Assembly (NCBI RefSeq): GCF_013343005.1 | Contig: NZ_CP054491.1 | Location: forward strand, 2,338,501 to 2,402,500 | DNA from: Candidatus Reidiella endopervernicosa | GTDB taxonomy: Bacteria > Pseudomonadota > Gammaproteobacteria > GCF-013343005 | Reading direction: 5' to 3' | Length of the DNA: 64,000 nucleotides | Shown here: in pieces, positions 20,072-46,358 of the stretch | Numbering within the stretch: position 1 is the stretch's first letter | How the letters are laid out: each line of letters opens with the position of its first letter | Notes under the pieces: generated by a model | What the model was told of the DNA's origin: nothing | What the model saw: only the letters and a program-made list of their open reading frames with translations | Databases searched by the model: none | Translations under genes and position numbers: made by a program

Positions 20072-22504
20072 CTACTCGGACAACACGCCGGTCACCTTAA
20101 ATATTTCACTCTTTAACTCGAGCGAGCGTAGATTGGCCCGTCGGATATCGGCCGCACGATTGATTCGATCCATCAATGACAATGCCAGCTTCAATGCACC
20201 CGAGCTATTGCTGCGCGCTGCGGTCAGCACAAAGGCCAATCCCTCGGCTTGGTTACGCTTTGCTGAGATTCCGTTGAACAGCCGTTCGCCGTAGCGGCTC
20301 ATGGCCCTGCCGTGCCCTGCAAGGGCGGCCTCATGATAGAGGCGCATCACATAACGACGATCCTGCCCCTTTTGAGAATCGAGCAGTTCGGCCAGGGCAT
20401 ATTTGGCATCGAGATAGCCGAGCTGTGCGGCACGCTCATACCACTTGATCGCCAGTGCCAGCCAATCTGTCGAGAGCTGGGTTTTATGAATGGAGTAGAG
20501 CTCACCCAGTTCATAGGCGGCCTTGATCGTACCGGTTACTGCAAAACGTTCAAAGATCTGTCGTGCATACCGAAGATCTCGGGGCACTCCCTTACCGACG
20601 GCATGAAGTCGTGCCATCTGCAGATTGCCGAGATCGTAGCCTTGATCAATCGACTTGCGATAGAGACGCACCGCCTTGTCGATATCCAGCGTTTCAAAGC
20701 GCCCATACTCAACCAGTTTTCCGAGTCTGAAGGTCGCCGCCCCCAGGCCACGTTCAGAGAGTATTCGGTAGCTTGCAATGGCACGGTCGACATTCTGCTC
20801 AACACCAATCCCCTCCAGTTGCAAATCGGCATAGCGCAGCTGAGCCGGTGGATAACCGGCCACTGCCGATCGCTCATAGAGCGCCACGATCTCGGGTGTC
20901 ACAGCGTTATCACCGAGACGGAACTCGAGCATACGCGCCAGCTTGTAGGTAGCCGCGTGATCACCCGCCTTAGAGAGATCGACAAAGATCACCCTGGCGG
21001 CCTCAAAGTCCCTGACTGCCTCATCCCCCTGAGCATAGAGATCGGCCAGCTTGAGACGTGCGTTACCGTCATGACCCTCGACAGCTGCGAGATAGTGATC
21101 ACGCGCCTTGATATGGTTGCGCGGCAGATAATTGCCGTCTCGGTAGTAGTCACCGAGACGAACCATCGCAGGGGTATATTGCTCCTCGACCAGCGCCTCA
21201 AGAAGCGCTACCGCACGCGACTTATCAAGATCGACACCCAGACCTTCCCAGTAGAGTCCGGCCAGTCGCAGCCTTGCACCCTGATGTCCGGCCTCTCCAG
21301 CGCGCTGATACCAACTCACGGCCTCTAGCGGAAAGTGATCAAAGTCGGCCATCAGTTCGATCATTTGGGCCGCACCGTAGGCGGCACTGACATCACCCCG
21401 TAGTGCATATTTATGGTAGATCAGTCGGGCTGCACGAATATCACGTGTCACCCCAAGGCCATACCCCATCATTCTCGCCATGCGCAGCTCAGCACGTTCA
21501 AAACCCTGGTCATAGGAGAGCTGATAGAGCTCGTGGGCGTAGGCATAATCGAGTGGCTTCTCCTCGCCATCGCGGTAGAGATCCCCGAGCTTCGCGGTAG
21601 CCGGACCATAACCGCCGATCGACATCTCTTGATAGGTGTTGATCGCCTTATCGATATCACGCTCAACACCGATACCATGAAAGTAGAGATCGGCCATACG
21701 CAGTCGGGCCGCCTCATAGCCACCACTGGCCGCCTGCCGATAGAGCTCGACTGAACGGGCCGAAGGGCCGGATTCACCAGAGAGTTGCTCCTCCAATGCG
21801 GCCAGCCGATAAGCGGCACTCATATTGCCAAGATCGATCTGCTGCTGTAACAGCTCACGAGCTCGGTCGTAATCGACAGCCACGCCACGTCCCTCGATAT
21901 AGAGGGTAGCCAAGCGGTTCGCGGCACTCCGATGCCCGAGTGCAAGGGCACGCTGATAGTAGTCGTATGCCTTGGCATAGTTCTGTTGCAGCGCGATACC
22001 CTCGTCATAGAGCAGCGCCAGCTTGTACTGGGCACGTGGATTATCGGCATTGGCATGGCGGGACAGGATTTCTACACCGCGCGACGTATCACGTGGCAGG
22101 TATTGCCCTTCGATGTAGAGCTCGGCCAGTACAATCTCGGCAGGTACGCTACCCGCCGTCGCAGCCTGTTTCAGTGCATCGATCGCCGTGGCACGTTCGA
22201 CATCGCTCTTTGCATAACGCAGCAGAAACTGCCCCATGCCGTAGAGCGCACCGGTATGACCCAGTTCAATCGCACGCTGGTAGTGCGTAAGCGCCTCTTG
22301 TTGACGATCGGTACCAAGATGGCCTGCCGCATAGAGCTTGGCCAGTTGGTACTCCGCTTCAGGGAAATCCTTCCTGGCCAGCACCTCCCAGTTATCGAAG
22401 GCGGTCTCGTAGTCGCATTCCAGATTGGCCCTCTGTGCCACCTGCAGGTCGGCACAGCTTGTGAGCAACAGGATCGAAATCAATAAAGTTAATAGATGAC
22501 GCAT
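20072..22504 (-). CDS. algK: AlgK-like lipoprotein with very long Sel1/TPR repeat array
   Basis: In Pseudomonas AlgK is an outer-membrane lipoprotein with TPR/Sel1 repeats that docks the AlgE porin. This 810-residue protein starts with MRHLLTLLISILLLTSCADLQ, a lipoprotein signal with lipobox LTSC. The rest is a chain of Sel1-type repeats, roughly 36 residues each, with motifs such as AEYQLAKLYAAG, ARLRMADLYFHGIGV and ATAKLGDLYRDG. It is much longer than the roughly 475-residue Pseudomonas protein, so the scaffold is extended. The ATG at 22504 is preferred over a GTG at 22513; the algE stop is at 22507-22509. Confidence 0.82.
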   Translation of the reverse strand: MRHLLTLLISILLLTSCADLQVAQRANLECDYETAFDNWEVLARKDFPEAEYQLAKLYAAGHLGTDRQQEALTHYQRAIELGHTGALYGMGQFLLRYAKSDVERATAIDALKQAATAGSVPAEIVLAELYIEGQYLPRDTSRGVEILSRHANADNPRAQYKLALLYDEGIALQQNYAKAYDYYQRALALGHRSAANRLATLYIEGRGVAVDYDRARELLQQQIDLGNMSAAYRLAALEEQLSGESGPSARSVELYRQAASGGYEAARLRMADLYFHGIGVERDIDKAINTYQEMSIGGYGPATAKLGDLYRDGEEKPLDYAYAHELYQLSYDQGFERAELRMARMMGYGLGVTRDIRAARLIYHKYALRGDVSAAYGAAQMIELMADFDHFPLEAVSWYQRAGEAGHQGARLRLAGLYWEGLGVDLDKSRAVALLEALVEEQYTPAMVRLGDYYRDGNYLPRNHIKARDHYLAAVEGHDGNARLKLADLYAQGDEAVRDFEAARVIFVDLSKAGDHAATYKLARMLEFRLGDNAVTPEIVALYERSAVAGYPPAQLRYADLQLEGIGVEQNVDRAIASYRILSERGLGAATFRLGKLVEYGRFETLDIDKAVRLYRKSIDQGYDLGNLQMARLHAVGKGVPRDLRYARQIFERFAVTGTIKAAYELGELYSIHKTQLSTDWLALAIKWYERAAQLGYLDAKYALAELLDSQKGQDRRYVMRLYHEAALAGHGRAMSRYGERLFNGISAKRNQAEGLAFVLTAARSNSSGALKLALSLMDRINRAADIRRANLRSLELKSEIFKVTGVLSE

Positions 22505-22506
22505 CA

Positions 22507-24152
22507 CTACCACCGCACCTTCAACTCAAGACGCGCACTATAGGCAGTATCATCGGCGGCAACCCCATCAAAGGCATCTCCACCCTGGAACACTCCCAAT
22601 ACACCTTCGGGAGTCGCTATTTTTGCGAAAGTTTGTTTTGGGCATCAAGCCCAAGCAAACAGCAAAACTTAACGCGACCGTTTATGCCTGCGGCGCCCCG
22701 ACGTCCTGCGTACGTTGCGTAATCACCTCTTCGCGGCTCTACACAACTCCCTCAGTGACTCTACGCCGACATAAAGCCGCTGCTGCATCTTCTCCGTCGT
22801 TCGCTCGCGCTCTCAACTACGAATAGGCAGACGGCGTCGACTATCGGGACTAACCGCCCTCACTTCGCTCTCCATGGCGGTCAGCGGAGGCGTATATCCC
22901 GATGCAGATCACCACCCAGAGTAAGGTCGAGCCCGTAACCAATATCGGTAGAGAGACCGTTGGGACGTAACCGCGTCCTTCCTGCCTGTAACCAGCTGTC
23001 TGCCTCCATCTGCTGGTAGTGGTAGTACGCACCCTCCAGCCAGACCGATTCGTTCAACGGCAGACCCGCAAACACAGAGACGATCTGCAGATTGCCAAGT
23101 GCAGGGTCGAGCGTATCACCGTAGTAGCGCAGCCGCGTATCACCTACCCGACGGTCTTTGTTTGAAGCGATATGTGGCTGTAGATAACCGCTATAGTCAC
23201 CACTAAGCGTCGGATCGCCCTGCCCCAACGCATACCTCACTCCAATGGCATGACCTTGTTCAGAGAGACGGGTAATCAGACCCAGATCGAGACCAAATCC
23301 TCCTGAGATCGACTGATCAACCCAACTCACCAGATGGGTAACAGGATCTTCAATACGTAGATTGCGATCACCCTGAACGGTCGCCAGGTCGAGCCAGTAA
23401 TTGAACCGACGTCCAGTGTTGTAACGCTTCTCACCTTCAAATGAGATGACCAGCCAATTCAACTCTGAGTTCTCGCTCAGCGCATTCGATTCATAGAGCT
23501 CATCGAAGGTAAAACGCTCGGGAGCCTCATAGGATTCGTGAATAAGTTGCAGACGCATAAAGTGGCGATGGTGCCACTGATATTCGATTGCGCCGAACAG
23601 ATAGTAGCTATCACTATCATCATTCCGGCTATTGTCATCTTCATCGAAGATATCGTCGAGGCGTGGATTCCAAACCCATCTGGCAGCACCCAGACCGATA
23701 TCGAGCAGGGTTGAGTCGTAGTAACCCTTGATCAGATCGATATCGTCATCAAATAACCAGGAGCGCTGATCACGCAGCCGGGTACGTCCAATATCTGCCG
23801 CCAGAAAGGGTGACTCAAAAAGGTTCTCACCACGAAGATAGAGGCGTTTAATCTCTGCAGAGAGACCACAATCGATCTCATTGGAACCAAACAGTTCGCG
23901 ACAGGAGAAGATGGCGCGCAGATCGGCATCGAGCAGCCAATCCTCCCACATCAAACGGTTATACCGAATCCCCAGCCTGACCAGTCCCTCGCTCGCTTCG
24001 TAGCGTTCATCGCCAAGCGGAGCCATATCGGAAAAACCACTGAGTTTAAAATCACTATAGAAGTGGTGACTGGAGAGTTCGCGTGGTTCAGCAGCCACAG
24101 CGGTCGCAGCGAGGATTAGAACAACCGCGTATCGACGCAGGATTTTAATCAT
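22507..24152 (-). pseudogene. algE: AlgE-like alginate export porin, interrupted by repeat near C-terminus
   Basis: AlgE is the outer-membrane barrel that exports alginate. From an ATG at 24152 (overlapping algG by four bases) the protein has signal peptide MIKILRRYAVVLILAATAVA and then barrel-like alternating strands (ELSSHHFYSDFKLSGFSD and many aromatic/charged pairs). It runs in frame to about residue 423 (HRDIRL). There the 22610-22886 repeat enters, adds one residue and gives a TGA at about 22881. Beyond the repeat the frame resumes as EGVLGVFQGGDAFDG and ends SARLELKVRW with a TAG at 22507. The terminal Trp is a typical OMP beta-signal, now severed. The encoded product lacks its last one or two strands and is probably not assembled. 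Confidence 0.85.
22610..22886 (+). repeat. ~277-bp dispersed repeat, copy 1 (inside algE)
   Basis: This segment matches 27522-27787 in inverted orientation almost throughout. Both copies share the end sequences GGAGTCGCTATTTTTGCGAA and CCATGGCGGTCAGCG, and a completely matching core of about 70 bases around 22708-22778. Differences are mainly small indels near 22636-22655, 22692-22706 and 22820-22850. It contains a hairpin-forming segment (GTTTG...GGGC/GCCC...CAAAC, 22630-22660) and an inverted pair CTAACCGCC/GGCGGTCAG near one end. No transposase and no long terminal inverted repeat are visible. It carries a short open frame (22623-22826), but indels between the copies break it. I interpret it as a non-autonomous MITE-like element. 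Confidence 0.85.
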
Positions 24153-26578
24153 CTCTCCACCCCGGCCCATCTTGATAGCTGGGTATAGCTCACCCTGGCG
24201 CCTGGATCACGATGACGGTTAACCTTACCCAGCACCTGCTCCAGTCGCTCCTTGTGTCTCTGCATATCTTCTGCACGTGTGGCGATCAGATAACGGTCGG
24301 ACGTCCTCTCTCGCATCGCCTTTCGGTCAAGATAGGCACGACGCTCTCCCGTCGCCTCTCGTCCCTCAAGCAGCTCACGCTGGCGACGCGCTTCGCGCTT
24401 GACCTTTAAACGATTAATAGCCTTCTGTTCGCTCAGGTACTCCTTCAGTTTGTCTGGTCCATAGGCCTGAAACCGATCAATCTCTGGTTTAAAAAGCCGC
24501 AGTACAGCGCGATAACTGCGTAGTTTTTCTGGCTCATTGCTCTGTGCCGCAGGTCTCTGCTCAGATGAACACTCATCACCCACACACAAATCAGCCGCTA
24601 CCAACTCTGCCCTGGCACGATTCACTGCAGAGACCAGTTGATTCTTGCTCACGCCAGTAATCAGCGGTAACCACTTGAGTTCAATGGCAGCCTTGGCATC
24701 GCCGTGAAGCGCTGCCAGAGCAAGTTTTGTTAGAGGCCCAACAACACGCTCTCCTCGATAGCCATGCTCTCGAAGCTTCAGATGTGCAAGCAGGCGCAAC
24801 GATGAGCTATGACCCGATTCAGCCGATTGTGATAGTGCATCTGTAATTCGTTTTATTGACTGTTTATTGGCGACACTCAACTCTCTGAGCTGAAGTACCG
24901 AGAGTTCATAGCTCGCTGCAACTACACCCTCTTGAGCAAGCTGCTCGAGTATTTCGCGTTTATAGCGATTAATGTCCCCCTGACGACTGGGTTTAACGGC
25001 ACCCCCTGCCCGTTTTTGTCGATGTAACTTTGACTGTCCACCGAATTGTTGACCACTACAGAGGCGCTTTGGATCACCACAGAAGGAGACACCACCTTGA
25101 AGATTACCGAGCAGTAGCTGATCAGCCACACCCTGAACATCATCTGAGAAGAGAGATGAACCAGAGGAACTAAAATCGTTACCGAACAGCTGTAGATAGG
25201 CACTCGATTTAATAGCAACAGCCCCCGATAGATTTTCAGAAAGGGTGTTTCTATTAAGTCTCAGACCACTCGCCATGTGGTAGGGATCACGTTCAAAGTC
25301 ACGCGTCTCCAGCTTATCGATATTGACGACTGCTGTTTCAACACCAAAATGGCCATTGCGGAAGAACCTGTTGTTATCAGCCGTTACCGAGAGACTATTG
25401 CGTACAAACAGTCCGTTATTGGCATTGGAAAAGAGTGTATTGCCACTGATGCGATTGTTATCGCTCTCAAAGATTGCCACTCCATCACCATGATTGGCAA
25501 AAACCACATTGTCACGAATCAGGGTTCTCTCAATATTTCGATCCAGCATGATGCCGGAACCGTGGTTACCGAAGGAGATATTCTCACTGATCAATGCATC
25601 CTTGATCTCACGTGAAAGGATTATGCCGTGTGCGTGTTTGGCATCGAAGGTGATGTTGCGCGCAACAATCAGCCGCTTGGTAAAATCGTGCGGATCTACG
25701 TTATAGATAAGGTTGTCGTGAAAAATATTTCCTATCAAGACTACACGATCGGCATCGTTGGTATAGAAACCGAAAAAACAGTTCACTATCCGGTTTCCGA
25801 CAAAGATACCGTGTGGTTTTGGGAGATATTTGATCGCGCCTGAGAGCGAAGAGACGGTCCAGAGTGACTTGATCTGCGGCGCTGTTAGCGACAGACCAAA
25901 ACTGGCCCGACCGTTATAACCAAGTCCATTAATGGTTGAGTTTGCAAAGTAACTGCCTGATCCTTCCATGCCCTGAATATAGGGGCGTGCGTCACGCTTG
26001 GCGTAATGCAGTAGCTCTGCCTTTGGCAAAACGGGTCGTGGTCCGTAGTCGCCACGACTTTCATCCCAGCTGGTAATGGTCGCATCGACCACATAGAGAT
26101 CGCCGTTATAGGCAAGCACAGCGGTGTCGGGTACAGATAGACGCAGTGTCACTCCCTGTACCACCAGCTTGGCAGTGGGTGCCACGTAGATCGGGCGGTA
26201 ACTGATGTAGGTCTTAGCATCGACCTGTCGAATCAGGCGATCATCGTTGACCAGCCGCACCACATCGGCAAGATCATAGACACCATTGGCAAGCATGATC
26301 GCCTTTACAGCCCCCCGTTTTCCCTGATGCTGTCGTGTTGTCTGTAACTCAAAATAATTTTCGACAGGAAAAGTATAGAGCTGATCGAGACGAATAAGCG
26401 ACACATCACTGCCGTGTCGACGCTGAGGTAGCCTCTCGCGAACCGACTCAACGGTATAACGATCCAGCTCACTCGCACCTGTCTGGTTGAGGGGAAGCTC
26501 AACAGCAAATAAAGCTTGGCTACAGAACAACAACGACCAGAGCAGTTGCCCCAAGTGCTGCATCGACAGACGCATCAT
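24149..26578 (-). CDS. algG: AlgG-like mannuronan C5-epimerase with C-terminal extension
   Basis: AlgG converts mannuronate to guluronate residues in the periplasmic polymer and helps protect it during export. The signal peptide (LLWSLLFCSQALFA) is followed by the AlgG N-terminal domain, then a right-handed beta-helix. The catalytic motif DPHDFT lies near residue 295, followed by HGIILSREIKDALISEN and SGIMLDRN, closely like Pseudomonas AlgG. Pseudomonas AlgG ends near residue 543. Here about 270 more residues follow: an alpha-helical Sel1/TPR-like part (about 555-660) and a very basic, Arg/Lys/Glu-rich predicted coiled coil (about 700-790). That fusion is unusual. The gene is 14 bases after alg44. 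Confidence 0.86.
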   Translation of the reverse strand: MMRLSMQHLGQLLWSLLFCSQALFAVELPLNQTGASELDRYTVESVRERLPQRRHGSDVSLIRLDQLYTFPVENYFELQTTRQHQGKRGAVKAIMLANGVYDLADVVRLVNDDRLIRQVDAKTYISYRPIYVAPTAKLVVQGVTLRLSVPDTAVLAYNGDLYVVDATITSWDESRGDYGPRPVLPKAELLHYAKRDARPYIQGMEGSGSYFANSTINGLGYNGRASFGLSLTAPQIKSLWTVSSLSGAIKYLPKPHGIFVGNRIVNCFFGFYTNDADRVVLIGNIFHDNLIYNVDPHDFTKRLIVARNITFDAKHAHGIILSREIKDALISENISFGNHGSGIMLDRNIERTLIRDNVVFANHGDGVAIFESDNNRISGNTLFSNANNGLFVRNSLSVTADNNRFFRNGHFGVETAVVNIDKLETRDFERDPYHMASGLRLNRNTLSENLSGAVAIKSSAYLQLFGNDFSSSGSSLFSDDVQGVADQLLLGNLQGGVSFCGDPKRLCSGQQFGGQSKLHRQKRAGGAVKPSRQGDINRYKREILEQLAQEGVVAASYELSVLQLRELSVANKQSIKRITDALSQSAESGHSSSLRLLAHLKLREHGYRGERVVGPLTKLALAALHGDAKAAIELKWLPLITGVSKNQLVSAVNRARAELVAADLCVGDECSSEQRPAAQSNEPEKLRSYRAVLRLFKPEIDRFQAYGPDKLKEYLSEQKAINRLKVKREARRQRELLEGREATGERRAYLDRKAMRERTSDRYLIATRAEDMQRHKERLEQVLGKVNRHRDPGARVSYTQLSRWAGVER

Positions 26579-26592
26579 CCGTTCCAGTCCGA

Positions 26593-27950
26593 TCAGTAGA
26601 GTGAATCGAGATCGAGAGTGGAGATTTTCACCGTTGCCACTGAATCAAGCATTTCAGCAGGGATTGGGCGACTCGGTTCAATGACGACGGTTGCATACTC
26701 ACTCGCCTGGCCGCGGTTTCGACTGAGCGGTGCAGACTGCAGATATTCAGAGCGGGTATGGGCCCTGACCTCAATCACCTTACCGGTGAGCAGTTCGCCG
26801 TTAACCAATCGCACCTCGGCGTCATCACCAACCTTGAGTCGATCGACAAACTCAAAGGCAACCTGCGCTTCAATACGCATGGAGGCACTCTTATCTGTCA
26901 AGGTAAAGAGCGGTTCACCCTTGGCAACAAAAACGTCATCTCTTACGTGTACATCATGAAGCAGACAGTCACAGGGGCCTTCAATCGTAGCTGCGCCACC
27001 ATTGACCAGTTTTACGATACCCAGCATCTGCCCTGAGTTGATCTCCTCGCTTCCGGCCTTAAGTGATTGATGGAAAAAACCATCATCTGGTGCCCTGAGG
27101 ACGACAATCGATCCCTGCACCTTGGCCGCCAGTGACTCAATGACAAACAGACGGTTGTAAGCAGTGAAGCCGATAAACCAGAGCAGTGCGGCAAAGATGG
27201 AGAAGAGAACGAGACGGCCGACAAAACGTTTCACACCCTGTACAAAACGGGTAAAGCCACCAACATTCTCCTCAAGTTTCTTATCAAGATCCTTTTTGAT
27301 GAAGCTGTCACGGCCAACAACGTGCAGTAGATCACCCGCATTGACCAACTCTCCCGAGAGGAACGCGTTAATAACATAGTGAATAAGCGAAAGGTTCTGT
27401 TTGGAGAGGTTAACGAAACGACAGCCAAAATCACACGATTCAGCATCATATCGAATCACCTCCATCTCAAGTTCAACAATCAGCTGAAAACCATCAAAGG
27501 CAAAGAGCAGCTGACCACCATCGCTGACCGCCATGGAGAGCGAAATGAGGGCGGTTAGTCCCTCGAATCCACGCCGTTGCCTATCGTAGTTGGCGCGAGC
27601 GAACGACGGAGAAGATGCAGCACGGCTTTATGTCGGCGTAGAGTCACTGAGGGAGTTGTGTAGAGCCGCGAAGAGGTGATTACGCAACGTACGCAGATGG
27701 TCGAGCGCCAGGCATAAACGGTCGCGTGAAGTTTTGCTGTTTGCTTGGGCTGATGCAAAGACAAACTTTCGCAAAAATAGCGACTCCGGGTGCTTGCGCC
27801 TATCTCCTGCGGAATTTTGATCGCAGAAAGACCGGAGACAGACCACTCCTCTATCTCATAGGGATTGCCGCCCATGATCAGTTTGGCAGGAATTCTGAAA
27901 CGGGCATGCTGACGAGAGTATTCAGCCTCGTGCACAATTTGTGTGGTCAT
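26593..27950 (-). pseudogene. alg44: Alg44 c-di-GMP receptor/alginate polymerase subunit, PilZ domain split by repeat
   Basis: Alg44 binds c-di-GMP through an N-terminal PilZ domain and activates Alg8; a single membrane segment and a periplasmic HlyD-like part follow. Here the N-terminal piece (ATG 27950) has the PilZ Arg motif RQHARFRIPAKL and the SVSG-type second motif, then reaches EIGAST. The repeat 27522-27787 follows and produces a TAA at 27555. The rest resumes in another frame as DGGQLLFAFDGFQLIVELE, FGCRFVNLS and ISTL at the C-terminus, including membrane segment VLFSIFAALLWFIGFTAY and HlyD-like domain. An ATG at 27534, 20 bases past the TAA and inside the repeat, could reinitiate the distal part. 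The intact receptor cannot be made as a single chain. Confidence 0.88.
27522..27787 (-). repeat. ~266-bp dispersed repeat, copy 2 (inside alg44)
   Basis: This is the partner of 22610-22886. On the minus strand it has the same start GGAGTCGCTATTTTTGCGAA and the same end CCATGGCGGTCAGCG, with small internal indels making it 11 bases shorter. It runs in the same direction as alg44, whereas copy 1 runs against algE. No convincing target-site duplication longer than two bases is visible. Joining the flanks at ACC|GAT gives EIGAST-DGGQLL, an in-frame PilZ sequence, which suggests a clean insertion. Confidence 0.85.
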
Positions 27951-28016
27951 TACACCTTTCTCTCTTTCACAATATTCATGGGGTTAAATCCAGGCTCAGA
28001 TGAGGTGGTTTAAGGT

Positions 28017-28040
28017 GTGTGAATAGTATATGGGTCACAC
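28017..28040. promoter_or_regulatory. inverted repeat GTGTGA-N12-TCACAC overlapping alg44 promoter
   Basis: A perfect six-base inverted repeat with a 12-base spacer covers the predicted -10 of the alg44 promoter. The spacer is too long for the CRP consensus (six bases). It could be an operator for another regulator or a transcript hairpin. A second, ten-base palindrome CCCATATGGG lies at 28073-28082. Confidence 0.4.
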
Positions 28041-28054
28041 ATATAGAACAACAA
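28025..28054 (-). promoter_or_regulatory. candidate promoter of the alginate-type operon
   Basis: On the minus strand TTGTTG (28049-28054) is followed 18 bases later by TATACT (28025-28030), about 75 bases ahead of the alg44 ATG. This resembles a sigma-70 promoter. No clear AlgU/sigma-E type GAACTT...TCTGA pair was seen, so control may differ from Pseudomonas algD. Confidence 0.4.
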
Positions 28055-28236
28055 TCTAGCTAACTATTCTGCCCCATATGGGACTCTATATGCGTTAGAC
28101 TGCAGCTAGGCTGAAAGCCCTATCGTTAATATCGAGCAAGCAGGCTCAAATAGCGACTCGAACGACTTCTTAGTGAGAGAGAAAAACAGTGAAAATCACC
28201 CTAACAACCACACTCAGCACATCTCAAAGTTAGACT

Positions 28237-29661
28237 ATGACTCACATCATTCCAGTCGTCCTTTCTGGCGGATCCGGTAGTCGGCTCTGGCCTCTATCCA
28301 GAGCACTCCACCCAAAGCAGTTTCTTCCCCTCACCGATGAGGAGTTGACGATGTTGCAGCAGACCATCGCACGGGTTCGCGGGATCGAGACCGAATCGCT
28401 TATGGTGGTCTGTAATGAACACCACCGCTTTCTGGTTGCTGAGCAGCTACTCAAGTCTGGCATTGAGAACAGCTCAATTATCCTGGAACCTGAGGGACGC
28501 AATACTGCACCAGCGATCTGCATCGCAGCACTAGAGGTCATAGAGAAACATGGCGATGGGCTGATGCTTGTACTGCCTGCTGACCACAAGATCAATGATG
28601 TTGATGCTTTTGAAGCGGCGGTAAGACACAGCGCAGCACTTGCAGACTCGGGAAACCTGGTCACATTTGGCATTAAACCGACAAATCCCAATACCGGTTA
28701 CGGATATATCCTGGCTGGTGAGCAGATCGATGAGAGTGCCTTACATGTCGATCGATTCGTCGAGAAGCCCAACCAGAAAGATGCGCAGCGATATCTCGAT
28801 GAAGGCACCTACTACTGGAATAGCGGCATGTTCATGTTGCGAGCAAGCGACTATCTCAATGAGCTCGCTCAGCATCAACCAGCCATTCTTGACGCTTGCA
28901 GGCAGTCGTACCAGCAGAGAACTATTGATAGCGACTTTGTTCGCATAGAGGCCTCCCATTTCGTAACCTCCCCCGCCATTTCAATCGACTACGCCGTGAT
29001 GGAGAAGACCGCACATGCAGCAATGGTTCCCTTCTCTGCAGGATGGAGTGATGTCGGATCCTGGAGTTCACTCTGGGAGGTTGGCGAAAAAGACATGAAA
29101 GGCAACGTCATACGCGGTGATGTTCACACCTCAGACGTCAACAATTCACTTATTTATGCCGAAAATCGCATGGTGGCTGCACTCGGTGTAAGCAATCATG
29201 TTGTGGTTGAGACAGCAGATGCGGTTCTGATTGCCGACATGAATTCGACTCAGGATATCAAACAGGTTGTTGAGACTCTCAACAGCAACCAACGCGAAGA
29301 GGCGCTACTCCATCTTAAGGTTGCCAGACCCTGGGGCTCATACGCTTGCATCGACGAGGAGCCGCGGTTCAAGGTCAAGCGAATCATCGTCAAACCACAC
29401 GCCTCACTCTCCCTGCAGCTCCACCATCAGCGTGCTGAACATTGGGTTGTAGTCAAAGGGAGTGCTCTGGTAACACGCGGCGATGAGAACTTTGTGCTCA
29501 ATGAGAATGAGTCGACCTATATACCGGTTGAAACCAGACACCGCCTAGAGAACCCTAACGACACACCACTTGAGATTATCGAGGTTCAATCAGGCAACTA
29601 TCTAGGCGAGGATGATATCGTCCGATTCGATGATCACTACGGTCGACATAATGGTAACTAG
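28237..29661 (+). CDS. algA: mannose-1-phosphate guanylyltransferase/mannose-6-phosphate isomerase
   Basis: This bifunctional enzyme makes GDP-mannose for alginate and other mannose polymers. The 474-residue protein has the N-terminal nucleotidyltransferase motif VVLSGGSGSRLWPLSR (residues about 6-21) and the signature FVEKPNQKDA. The C-terminal cupin isomerase domain begins near residue 367 (RPWGSYACIDEEPRFKVKRI), with zinc-site segment SLQLHHQRAEHWVVVKG. It is divergent from alg44, with a 286-base shared upstream region. In Pseudomonas algA is the last gene of the operon. Other users of GDP-mannose are possible, so manC would be an equivalent name. Confidence 0.93.
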   Translation: MTHIIPVVLSGGSGSRLWPLSRALHPKQFLPLTDEELTMLQQTIARVRGIETESLMVVCNEHHRFLVAEQLLKSGIENSSIILEPEGRNTAPAICIAALEVIEKHGDGLMLVLPADHKINDVDAFEAAVRHSAALADSGNLVTFGIKPTNPNTGYGYILAGEQIDESALHVDRFVEKPNQKDAQRYLDEGTYYWNSGMFMLRASDYLNELAQHQPAILDACRQSYQQRTIDSDFVRIEASHFVTSPAISIDYAVMEKTAHAAMVPFSAGWSDVGSWSSLWEVGEKDMKGNVIRGDVHTSDVNNSLIYAENRMVAALGVSNHVVVETADAVLIADMNSTQDIKQVVETLNSNQREEALLHLKVARPWGSYACIDEEPRFKVKRIIVKPHASLSLQLHHQRAEHWVVVKGSALVTRGDENFVLNENESTYIPVETRHRLENPNDTPLEIIEVQSGNYLGEDDIVRFDDHYGRHNGN

Positions 29662-43221: not shown

Positions 43222-44094
43222 ATGTACTACATAAAACATTTGACGGCACACCTTTTTGCAATATCCCTACTGCTCACATCAAACACTGTGGTCGCAGATG
43301 CAGAAAATGGATTGACTCTCGGCATACACCCCTACCTACATGCAACCACACTGGTAGAGCGTTTTACCCCACTGACAGAATATCTTTCAAAAACAACCGG
43401 CAAACACATCCATATACGTGTCGGTACCAGTTATCAGGATCATATCGATGCGGTTAACCAAGGTGAGGTCGATTTCGCCTATTTTGGTCCTGCTGGATAT
43501 ATCAAGGCAACCGAACTTAACGAGAACATCGTACCACTCGGCAGGCTGAGCTTTGCAGGCAGGGATACATTTCGAGGTGTAATCACTATCCGCAGAGATA
43601 GTAAGATCACCTCATTAAGCGAGCTCAAAGGGAAAAGTTTTGCATTTGGCGATCCCAACTCAACCCTGAGCAATCTGGTACCGCAAAGATTGCTTAACGA
43701 TGTCGGAATCGATTTAACCGATCTGGACTCCTACTCACATCTTAAAAACCACCACAATGTCGCATTGGCGGTTTTGATGGGGAAATATCACGCCGGTGGC
43801 ATTAAAGAAGAGGTGTTTCGTGAGTACGAGGCTCGAGGGCTTAAAGCACTGAAGTGGACCCCTGACGTTCCCACTCATATTTTTGTTGCTGGTCCAACAA
43901 CAAAAAGAGAGCTTATCGACGAACTGATCCCACTCTTACAAAATCTTCACAAACAATCGGGAGCGGCCTTGATTTTAAACAAAATCAAAAAGGGTGCCAC
44001 CGCGATCATTCCCGCGACAAGCCAGGAGTACGACAAGCTACGTGCTCTTATCTCAGACCGTCCATTGTTAGAGCAAAGAAAAACAGCACCGTGA
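43222..44094 (+). CDS. PhnD-like periplasmic binding protein coupled to GGDEF-EAL gene
   Basis: A 290-residue secreted protein: signal peptide MYYIKHLTAHLFAISLLLT ending near VVA, then LTLGIHPYLHATTLVERFTPL, VGTSYQDHIDAVNQGEVDFAYFGPAGYI and KGKSFAFGDPNSTLSNLVPQ. These match phosphate/phosphonate-type (PhnD, PF12974) binding proteins. No ABC permease or ATPase gene is near. The stop overlaps the GTG start of the following GGDEF-EAL gene, so it probably senses a ligand for that enzyme rather than feeding a transporter. The ATG at 43222 is chosen because it starts the signal peptide; 23 codons upstream are open but lack such features. Confidence 0.85.
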   Translation: MYYIKHLTAHLFAISLLLTSNTVVADAENGLTLGIHPYLHATTLVERFTPLTEYLSKTTGKHIHIRVGTSYQDHIDAVNQGEVDFAYFGPAGYIKATELNENIVPLGRLSFAGRDTFRGVITIRRDSKITSLSELKGKSFAFGDPNSTLSNLVPQRLLNDVGIDLTDLDSYSHLKNHHNVALAVLMGKYHAGGIKEEVFREYEARGLKALKWTPDVPTHIFVAGPTTKRELIDELIPLLQNLHKQSGAALILNKIKKGATAIIPATSQEYDKLRALISDRPLLEQRKTAP

Positions 44095-46358
44095 TTTCAT
44101 TGAAAAAAACAGCTCACAGACAAAGCTGGTTTGGCATCGCTCTGCTATTCACACTATTCCTGGTGGCCGGTAACTTTTTCATATACCAGCAGCAACACGA
44201 CTCACTTTTCAGTAGCTTTGAAAACTCACAACAAAACGTCGTAAAACTACTCACACAGTTGGCACGGGAGTCGTTAATCACCGAGAACTTCGCTCTAATC
44301 GAGTGGTATTTCAACAGCTGGGGGAAAGGACACAGCGAAGTAGTAACACTTACTTTAGTCAATGAGGACGGTTTTGCGCTGAGTACATACAATCGACCTA
44401 CCCCATCAGTGAGAGAGACATTCACCAGTTCTGGATCAATAACGGTTAATCACGACCGATATGACCTGACACTCACTAGCGAACCTATTGTTACCACACA
44501 GCTCCTAAACAGCCTAATCAAACAGTTGGCTCTTATAAGTTCCATCGCAACCATTTTGCTTGGTATAACAACCTGGTTTCTTTTTCACAAATTTTCCATC
44601 ACACCACTACTGCATGAAATAGAGCGTCGCCGTAATGCCGAACATGAAATAGCCAAACAGCACCGGTTATTACAATCTGTAATCAATGGTGTTCATGATG
44701 GGATCATGCTGATTAACACCGATTATGAAGTGGAGCTTATCAATGACTCTGCTGCAGGCACTGAAGACCCCCAATTATTTAACGACCAGCAACAACCTAT
44801 CCACTGCTATGAGATCTCCCATAACCGTGACACACCCTGCGATGGCGACGACCATCCCTGCCCACTTCGGCAGGTAAAACTAACTGGAAAACATGCCACG
44901 ACGCTTCACAACCACCCAGATGAGAGTGGAAATGACCGTTTTTTTGAGTTACTCGCCTCTCCACTCTTTGATGACAACGGCAAACTGACGGGAATCATTG
45001 AATCATCTCGTGAGATGACATCCCATATCCTTTTGCAGCATGAGATTGAAGAAAAGAGTCAGCACCTGGACCACCTGGCCCATCACGACACACTCACATC
45101 ACTACCTAACCGACTACTCTTCCTGGACCGGCTGGAACAGACGTTACTAAAAGCCAGAAGAAACGGTGAACTGTTTGCATTGTTCTTTATCGATCTTGAT
45201 CAGTTCAAACAGATCAATGACAGCGTTGGACACAGCGTTGGTGACAAGGTCCTGATACAGACGGGTAAATGCCTTCAACAGTGCATACGCGCAGATGACA
45301 CCATCGCTCGTCTTGGGGGAGATGAATTCACGATAATTCTCACCTCTGTAAATAGTCCAGATGATGCCGCCTCTGTTGCTCAAAAGGTAATCGAGGCGAT
45401 TAAAGAGCCAATGGATATCGATGGTAACAATTACCATCTAACGGCGAGCATATGAATCAGCATCTATCCACAAGATGCAGACAGTTGCGAAACGCTCATT
45501 CGTAATGCTGATGCCGCGATGTTCAAGGTAAAAGAGAGAGGCCGTAACTCATATCAGTTCTATACGGAAGATCTTACCCATCGAGCCATGCAAAGAATGT
45601 TGTTGGAGAACGGCATTCGAAAGGCCCTGACAGATCAACATTTTGTTGCCTGGTATCAGCCCCAATATGACATTGAAACCAACCAATTAATTGGGATGGA
45701 GGCACTTGCTCGATGGATATCCCCTGATCGGGGCATTATTTCACCACTTGATTTCATTCCTCTCGCGGAAGAGACCGGGCTGATACTGGAGCTAGGTGAA
45801 CAGATACTAGATCAGGTCATGCAGCAGGTGGTCGGCTGGCACGAACAGGGGCTGAATCCAGGTCGGGTTGCCATCAATGTATCGGGAAAACAGCTACTAA
45901 ATGGAAACATAAGCGCTACGGTTAAGCGACTCCTTGAACAAAACCGGTGCAAGGTCGAATGGATCGAGATTGAAGTCACTGAAGGCTTTGTTATGGGTCA
46001 GGGTGAAGGTGCCATTGAACAACTTCAAGAACTACAGGCGCTGGGAGTGCAACTATCTATTGATGATTTTGGTACCGGCTATTCATCGCTTGCATACCTA
46101 AAACAGCTACCCATCTCCAAACTAAAAATTGACAAATCGTTCGTCGATGACCTTCCACACGATCTGGACGACACAGGTATAACACGCGCCGTTATCGCCC
46201 TGGCAAACAGCCTCGGTCTAGATGTTATTGCAGAAGGTGTCGAATCGCGTGAGCAGGCAGATTTCCTTCTACAAGAGGGCTGTCCACTTGCACAGGGTTA
46301 CCTCTACTCGAAGCCCCTACCTGCGGATAAGATTACTACGTTACTGAAAAACGGTTAA
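44091..46358 (+). pseudogene. PAS-GGDEF-EAL protein interrupted by in-frame TGA
   Basis: The frame begins at a GTG (44091) overlapping the previous stop. It has membrane segments near residues 14-32 and 145-165, a PAS-like region (about 200-320), then a GGDEF domain with RADD I-site and LGGDEFTIIL (about 410). At codon 455 a TGA (45453-45455) replaces the glycine expected in SI-G-ISIYP. Without any frame change the sequence continues ISIYPQDADSCETLIRNADAAMF and a complete EAL domain (MEALARW, IEVTEGFV, DDFGTGYSSLAYL) to 46358. A single GGA-to-TGA change explains it. The EAL part could restart at a later codon (for example the ATG at 45519), but the GGDEF domain is cut. A sequencing error is also possible. 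Confidence 0.9.

Follow-up and report, generated by a model that had tools for sequence, protein, structure and literature searches.

Loss of c-di-GMP genes has been described in Shigella and in Yersinia pestis, and a review on the subject (PMC10333796) also recounts that YciR becomes a cyclase when it is cut just after its GGDEF domain. In Shigella flexneri, the genes dgcE, dgcQ, and dgcN carry stops that are located before the GGDEF region; as stated in the report on them (PMC11327459), c-di-GMP is still raised and multiple proteins are produced. The gene described here is likewise a c-di-GMP gene that is interrupted by a stop codon, in this instance a TGA inside the GGDEF region. The TGA is very probably a recent nonsense mutation in a genome that has many other lesions and shows broad gene decay.

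Materials and Methods

The window (the whole stretch of DNA that was analyzed, 64,000 nucleotides in length) comprises positions 2338501-2402500, forward strand, of a genome assembled as a single contig (3,446,950 bases). The listing for this assembly gives 100% completeness and 0.02 contamination. All of the relatives returned by the GGDEF-EAL search were no closer than the same class. Shine-Dalgarno pairing was scaled against ten gene starts in the window, which ranged from -0.4 to -6.8, and against the gene's own GTG, which scored -2.1.

A codon-usage survey for stops in coding sequence was carried out on 464 kb and yielded 281 candidates. Frame separation was poor (the wrong-frame 90th percentile of the model was 0.15, compared to a true-frame median of 0.20), and no rate was drawn.

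Results

The features of the locus are collected in Table 1. The TGA at 45453-45455 lies in the reading frame that the GTG at 44091 opens (+ strand). When the TGA was taken as a residue, the frame 44091-46358 specified 755 amino acids, ended at the stop at 46356-46358, and contained no other stop or shift. Read through, the gene has the architecture membrane region-PAS-GGDEF-EAL. The Pfam matches located before the TGA were PAS_4 and GGDEF (profile positions 1-127 of 161, E 2.5e-40), and that located after it was EAL (profile positions 4-236 of 236, E 2.7e-72). The run of some 300 codons past the TGA encodes a complete EAL domain without a change of frame, which cannot be put down to chance. 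By codon usage, the sequence past the TGA looked no less gene-like than that before it (0.12 and 0.03, respectively, in a weak model).

Table 1. Features of the interrupted locus, in window coordinates
Feature	Coordinates	Strand	Evidence
Periplasmic phosphonate-binding-like (PhnD-like) protein, PF12974	43153..44094	+	Pfam E 3.1e-57, ORF list
Upstream half: membrane region, PAS, and GGDEF to profile position 127/161; 454 aa, then TGA	44091..45455	+	ORF list, Pfam
In-frame TGA, residue 455, conserved glycine position	45453..45455	+	Sequence, alignment
Downstream half: last 34 GGDEF profile positions and whole EAL, same frame	45456..46358	+	Pfam, motif positions
Longest ORF with its own start past the TGA, 279 aa, hypothetical EAL-only product	45519..46358	+	ORF list

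The GGDEF motif (residue 409) and the RxxD inhibitory site (RADD, residue 400) are both encoded upstream of the TGA. The segment NADAAMFKVKERGRN at residue 472 lies downstream of it, and the EAL, NVS, EVTE, DDFGTG, KIDKSF, EGVE, and QGY motifs were all found past it. The protein before the lesion thus had the GGDEF and RxxD motifs and the complete EAL domain of a hybrid GGDEF-EAL enzyme, but the gene as now encoded does not hold both domains in one uninterrupted frame. In the PAS region, a cysteine-rich stretch, HCYEISHNRDTPCDGDDHPCPL, is encoded at window positions 44800-44875; it could bind a metal or a cofactor.

In relatives, the site of the TGA is a strand that reads SIGI or SVGI. Before glycines were counted, any row with under 80 bases of context was discarded, and rows that shared one context were merged. 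In the alignment of the genome's own GGDEF domains, 45 of the 47 places with a letter at the TGA column were glycine (13 gaps), and the two exceptions were the TGA itself and a serine at a different broken locus. Among the 62 loci fetched from other genomes, glycine stood at the same column in 48 of 49 lettered places (2 gaps). A sequence-only reading of this DNA had claimed that the frame continues unshifted past the TGA and that the TGA replaces a conserved glycine; the 755-residue frame without a second stop and the glycine counts bear out both points. The gene therefore shows one mark of a pseudogene, in that the disabling lesion falls on a residue that relatives conserve. The read-through protein could be aligned to the structures 5m3c (residues 331-748, E 2.5e-123) and 4rnh (residues 327-749).

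The PhnD-like gene and the GGDEF-EAL gene share 4 nt, where the stop of the former runs over the GTG start of the latter. PhnD-like matches were found in 8 of the 62 loci from other genomes. Six of the 20 loci from the N-terminal search (L084, L090, L091, L095, L098, and L099) have this gene adjoining the sensor gene, and in five of these six the membrane region was also matched by tblastn; in L009 and L014, the PhnD-like matches were weaker and farther from the sensor gene. As judged by eye, some of the sensor genes end in a histidine kinase-like part, one in a response regulator-like part, one in an EAL-like part, and one (L084) in a GGDEF-like part. The PhnD-like binding protein and the membrane sensor thus seem to form a conserved pair whose output domains vary. 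The N-terminal 300 residues had a match in 76 of 369 genomes of the class (own genome included). Besides the gene itself, these matches covered mostly the PAS part, and the best over the membrane part was 38% identical (L084). On plasmids, 1252 records had a match, none of which covered 80% of the query; on viral contigs, there were two pattern matches, neither of which was a relative of the protein.

The genome gave 97 GGDEF matches, which were joined into 83 loci, one split pair (3221726/3222031) being merged by hand. Sixty-two of these loci were whole, 3 were partial, 4 had an in-frame stop alone, and 14 were split between frames. Interruptions thus affect 18 of the 83, in the form of in-frame stops, frameshifts, or a repeat of ~280 bp. 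In two complete genomes of the class, none of 73 GGDEF matches had a stop or a split, and one was partial. The comparison of 18/83 with 0/73 gave a Fisher p of 4.8e-6, a value that pertains to two comparison genomes and to family members that are not independent within a genome. In the best 150 GGDEF-EAL matches listed, which came from 56 genomes, a stop was present in 3 of the 12 rows from the genome itself and in 1 of the 138 others (counted by eye; Fisher p 0.0015, rows not independent). The lesion pattern of the EAL matches in the genome was like that of the GGDEF matches. ABC transporter domains were also broken, at about six places (grouped by eye), and the decay is thus not confined to the GGDEF family. 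The stops inside GGDEF, EAL, and ABC transporter matches were 12 TGA, 9 TAG, and 7 TAA (by eye).

The ~280-bp repeat had 363 first-look candidates in the genome. Forty were scored, and at least 41 matches were listed, at 96-100% identity; 32 near-full copies were present in the 464 kb sampled. The repeat interrupts at least four GGDEF domains, and among the 14 split GGDEF loci, four hold a copy (the fourth is L006). Its ends carry hairpin-like sequence, and clear terminal inverted repeats or target duplications were not seen at them (both by eye). Rfam gave no match to the repeat. In its ends, it may resemble non-autonomous elements of the IS200/IS605 type. Twenty-eight of 368 further genomes of the class hold parts of it, and two methanotroph plasmids carry its left end only. 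The literature, searched for a short repeat of high copy number in a gammaproteobacterial genome under decay, yielded nothing relevant. Two copies are located in the window, at 22609-22887 (+) and 27522-27787 (-).

Elsewhere in the window, five genes of core type, those of BamA, RseP, GlnD, pyruvate:ferredoxin oxidoreductase, and GMP_PMI, matched their models over the full length or almost so. Alginate biosynthesis-like genes (an AlgG-like epimerase and a mannose-1-phosphate guanylyltransferase/isomerase) were noted at 24152-29658, and an AlgK-like match was noted at 20075-22513; the AlgG and AlgK matches were both under their cut-offs.

The genome and the locus were also searched for the components and signals of recoding. 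No match to SelB reached the cut-off (242 bits); the best two, at 184 and 180 bits, came from frames of ~400 codons and are presumably elongation factor Tu. Likewise, no tRNA-Sec was found at the cut-off: the best match was a serine tRNA, and a second overlay tyrosine, glycine, and threonine tRNAs. Neither component of the selenoprotein machinery was thus found over its cut-off. RF2 was present, over its cut-off and in an open frame. There were no Rfam matches near the gene. The segment 45420-45500 folded better than its shuffles (z -4.0, compared to -1.7 and 0.0 for two other segments). The strongest element of this fold was a hairpin at 45420-45438 with 8 bp and no mismatch, which precedes the TGA, and a 6-bp hairpin was located just past the TGA; the fold was given no weight.

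Discussion

In the explanation that accounts best for these results, a single-base nonsense mutation, real and recent, would have broken a membrane-PAS-GGDEF-EAL gene that stands in an operon with the PhnD-like gene. Translation would stop within the GGDEF domain, past the active-site motif and before the last strand and helix. The diguanylate cyclase would then lack its fold or its activity, and the EAL domain would not be made as part of the full protein. The genome would be losing genes, those for c-di-GMP among them, by nonsense mutations, frameshifts, and short-repeat insertions, and the TGA would be one such lesion. The TGA, the intact frame on either side of it, the conserved position, and the other broken loci are seen directly, whereas we infer that the mutation is genuine, that it happened recently, and that its product is inactive; a truncated product that lacks the last 34 GGDEF positions should not fold into an active cyclase. 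Read through, the GGDEF domain of the gene was the fifth-best of the 97 matches in the genome; this high rank indicates that there has been little other decay, which suggests a recent event. The interrupted gene is probably a pseudogene. A nonsense mutation had been offered by the sequence-only reading, and the like damage at 17 other GGDEF loci of the genome supports it. Since the genome is full of such lesions, the TGA here is ordinary. The retention of the EAL motifs and the gene-like codon usage past the TGA would also be expected if the downstream half were still used.

The TGA could instead be a one-base error of sequencing or assembly, with the gene intact in the living organism. It is a lone substitution and the rest of the gene is undamaged, as such an error would leave it. 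However, the whole insertions of ~280 bp in sister genes are not base-calling errors, the assembly is a single contig with the completeness and contamination given above, and the core-type genes of the window are intact. An error is therefore regarded as unlikely.

The gene could also have become two working parts, i.e. a truncated sensor-GGDEF protein and a phosphodiesterase that consists of the EAL part alone, with translation initiated internally or re-initiated past the TGA. The EAL domain is complete and has its catalytic motifs, and in-frame starts past the TGA are available at 45519, 45588, 45597, 45600, and 45603. There is also precedent in the nonsense-mutated diguanylate cyclase genes of Shigella flexneri, which are reported (PMC11327459) to increase c-di-GMP even so and to yield multiple proteins. 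The start signals speak against this proposal. The first in-frame ATG past the TGA, at 45519, has no Shine-Dalgarno pairing (+0.6 kcal/mol), the later starts are weak (-1.0 to -2.2 kcal/mol, although the gene's own GTG is itself at no more than -2.1), and a further candidate at 45696 scored +0.4. The ATG that overlaps the TGA (45452) is in another frame, which meets a stop at 45503. An internal start past the TGA is thus not favoured, and the existence of two working parts is improbable. The earlier suggestion that the EAL domain might be expressed alone accordingly stands as to the whole domain and its motifs, and it falters as to the first downstream ATG, which lacks a start signal, and the later ones, which are weak. 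Slighter still is the chance that the TGA has rewired a PhnD-linked signal. In that case, the nonsense mutation would have left a dual enzyme as a truncated sensor plus an EAL phosphodiesterase with a start of its own, and the signal, once dual in its output, would lead to c-di-GMP breakdown alone.

Synthesis of a full-length enzyme by programmed or leaky read-through, which had been raised earlier as a rare option, or by selenocysteine insertion would suit the unshifted frame, the favorable fold, and the hairpins on either side of the TGA, but it is without support and extremely unlikely, because SelB and tRNA-Sec are under their cut-offs, RF2 is present, and TGA, TAG, and TAA all occur among the lesions of the genome. 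To our knowledge, a glycine in a beta strand is not a usual position for selenocysteine.

Taken alone, the TGA matters little, as it adds a further nonsense allele among c-di-GMP genes; of the two, the high-copy repeat deserves more notice. With about 83 GGDEF loci, 18 of them interrupted, and several hundred copies of a short repeat, the genome may serve as a case study of the dismantling of a very large c-di-GMP network. It may also show whether cyclase and phosphodiesterase genes retain some of their function once broken.

Among known systems, 5m3c, a solved GGDEF-EAL structure, has a glycine at the position aligned to the TGA; both it and the 4rnh/4rnf motility regulator are uninterrupted GGDEF-EAL proteins, unlike the gene here. 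The degenerate dgcE, dgcQ, dgcN, dgcM, and pdeR of Shigella flexneri are likewise GGDEF or GGDEF-EAL genes hit by nonsense mutations, and that organism has likewise lost much of its c-di-GMP network (PMC11327459, PMC10333796). In those Shigella genes, the stop precedes the GGDEF region and a whole GGDEF domain is left downstream, whereas here the stop is inside the GGDEF region and a whole EAL domain is left downstream. Leftover activity has been demonstrated for the Shigella genes, whereas here any such activity is putative. YciR (PdeR) of Escherichia coli is also a PAS-GGDEF-EAL protein, and it too has been truncated between the two domains (PMC10333796). The cut in YciR, however, falls after the GGDEF domain, whereas the last 34 positions of the GGDEF profile are removed here, and a gain of cyclase activity like that of YciR is therefore not expected.
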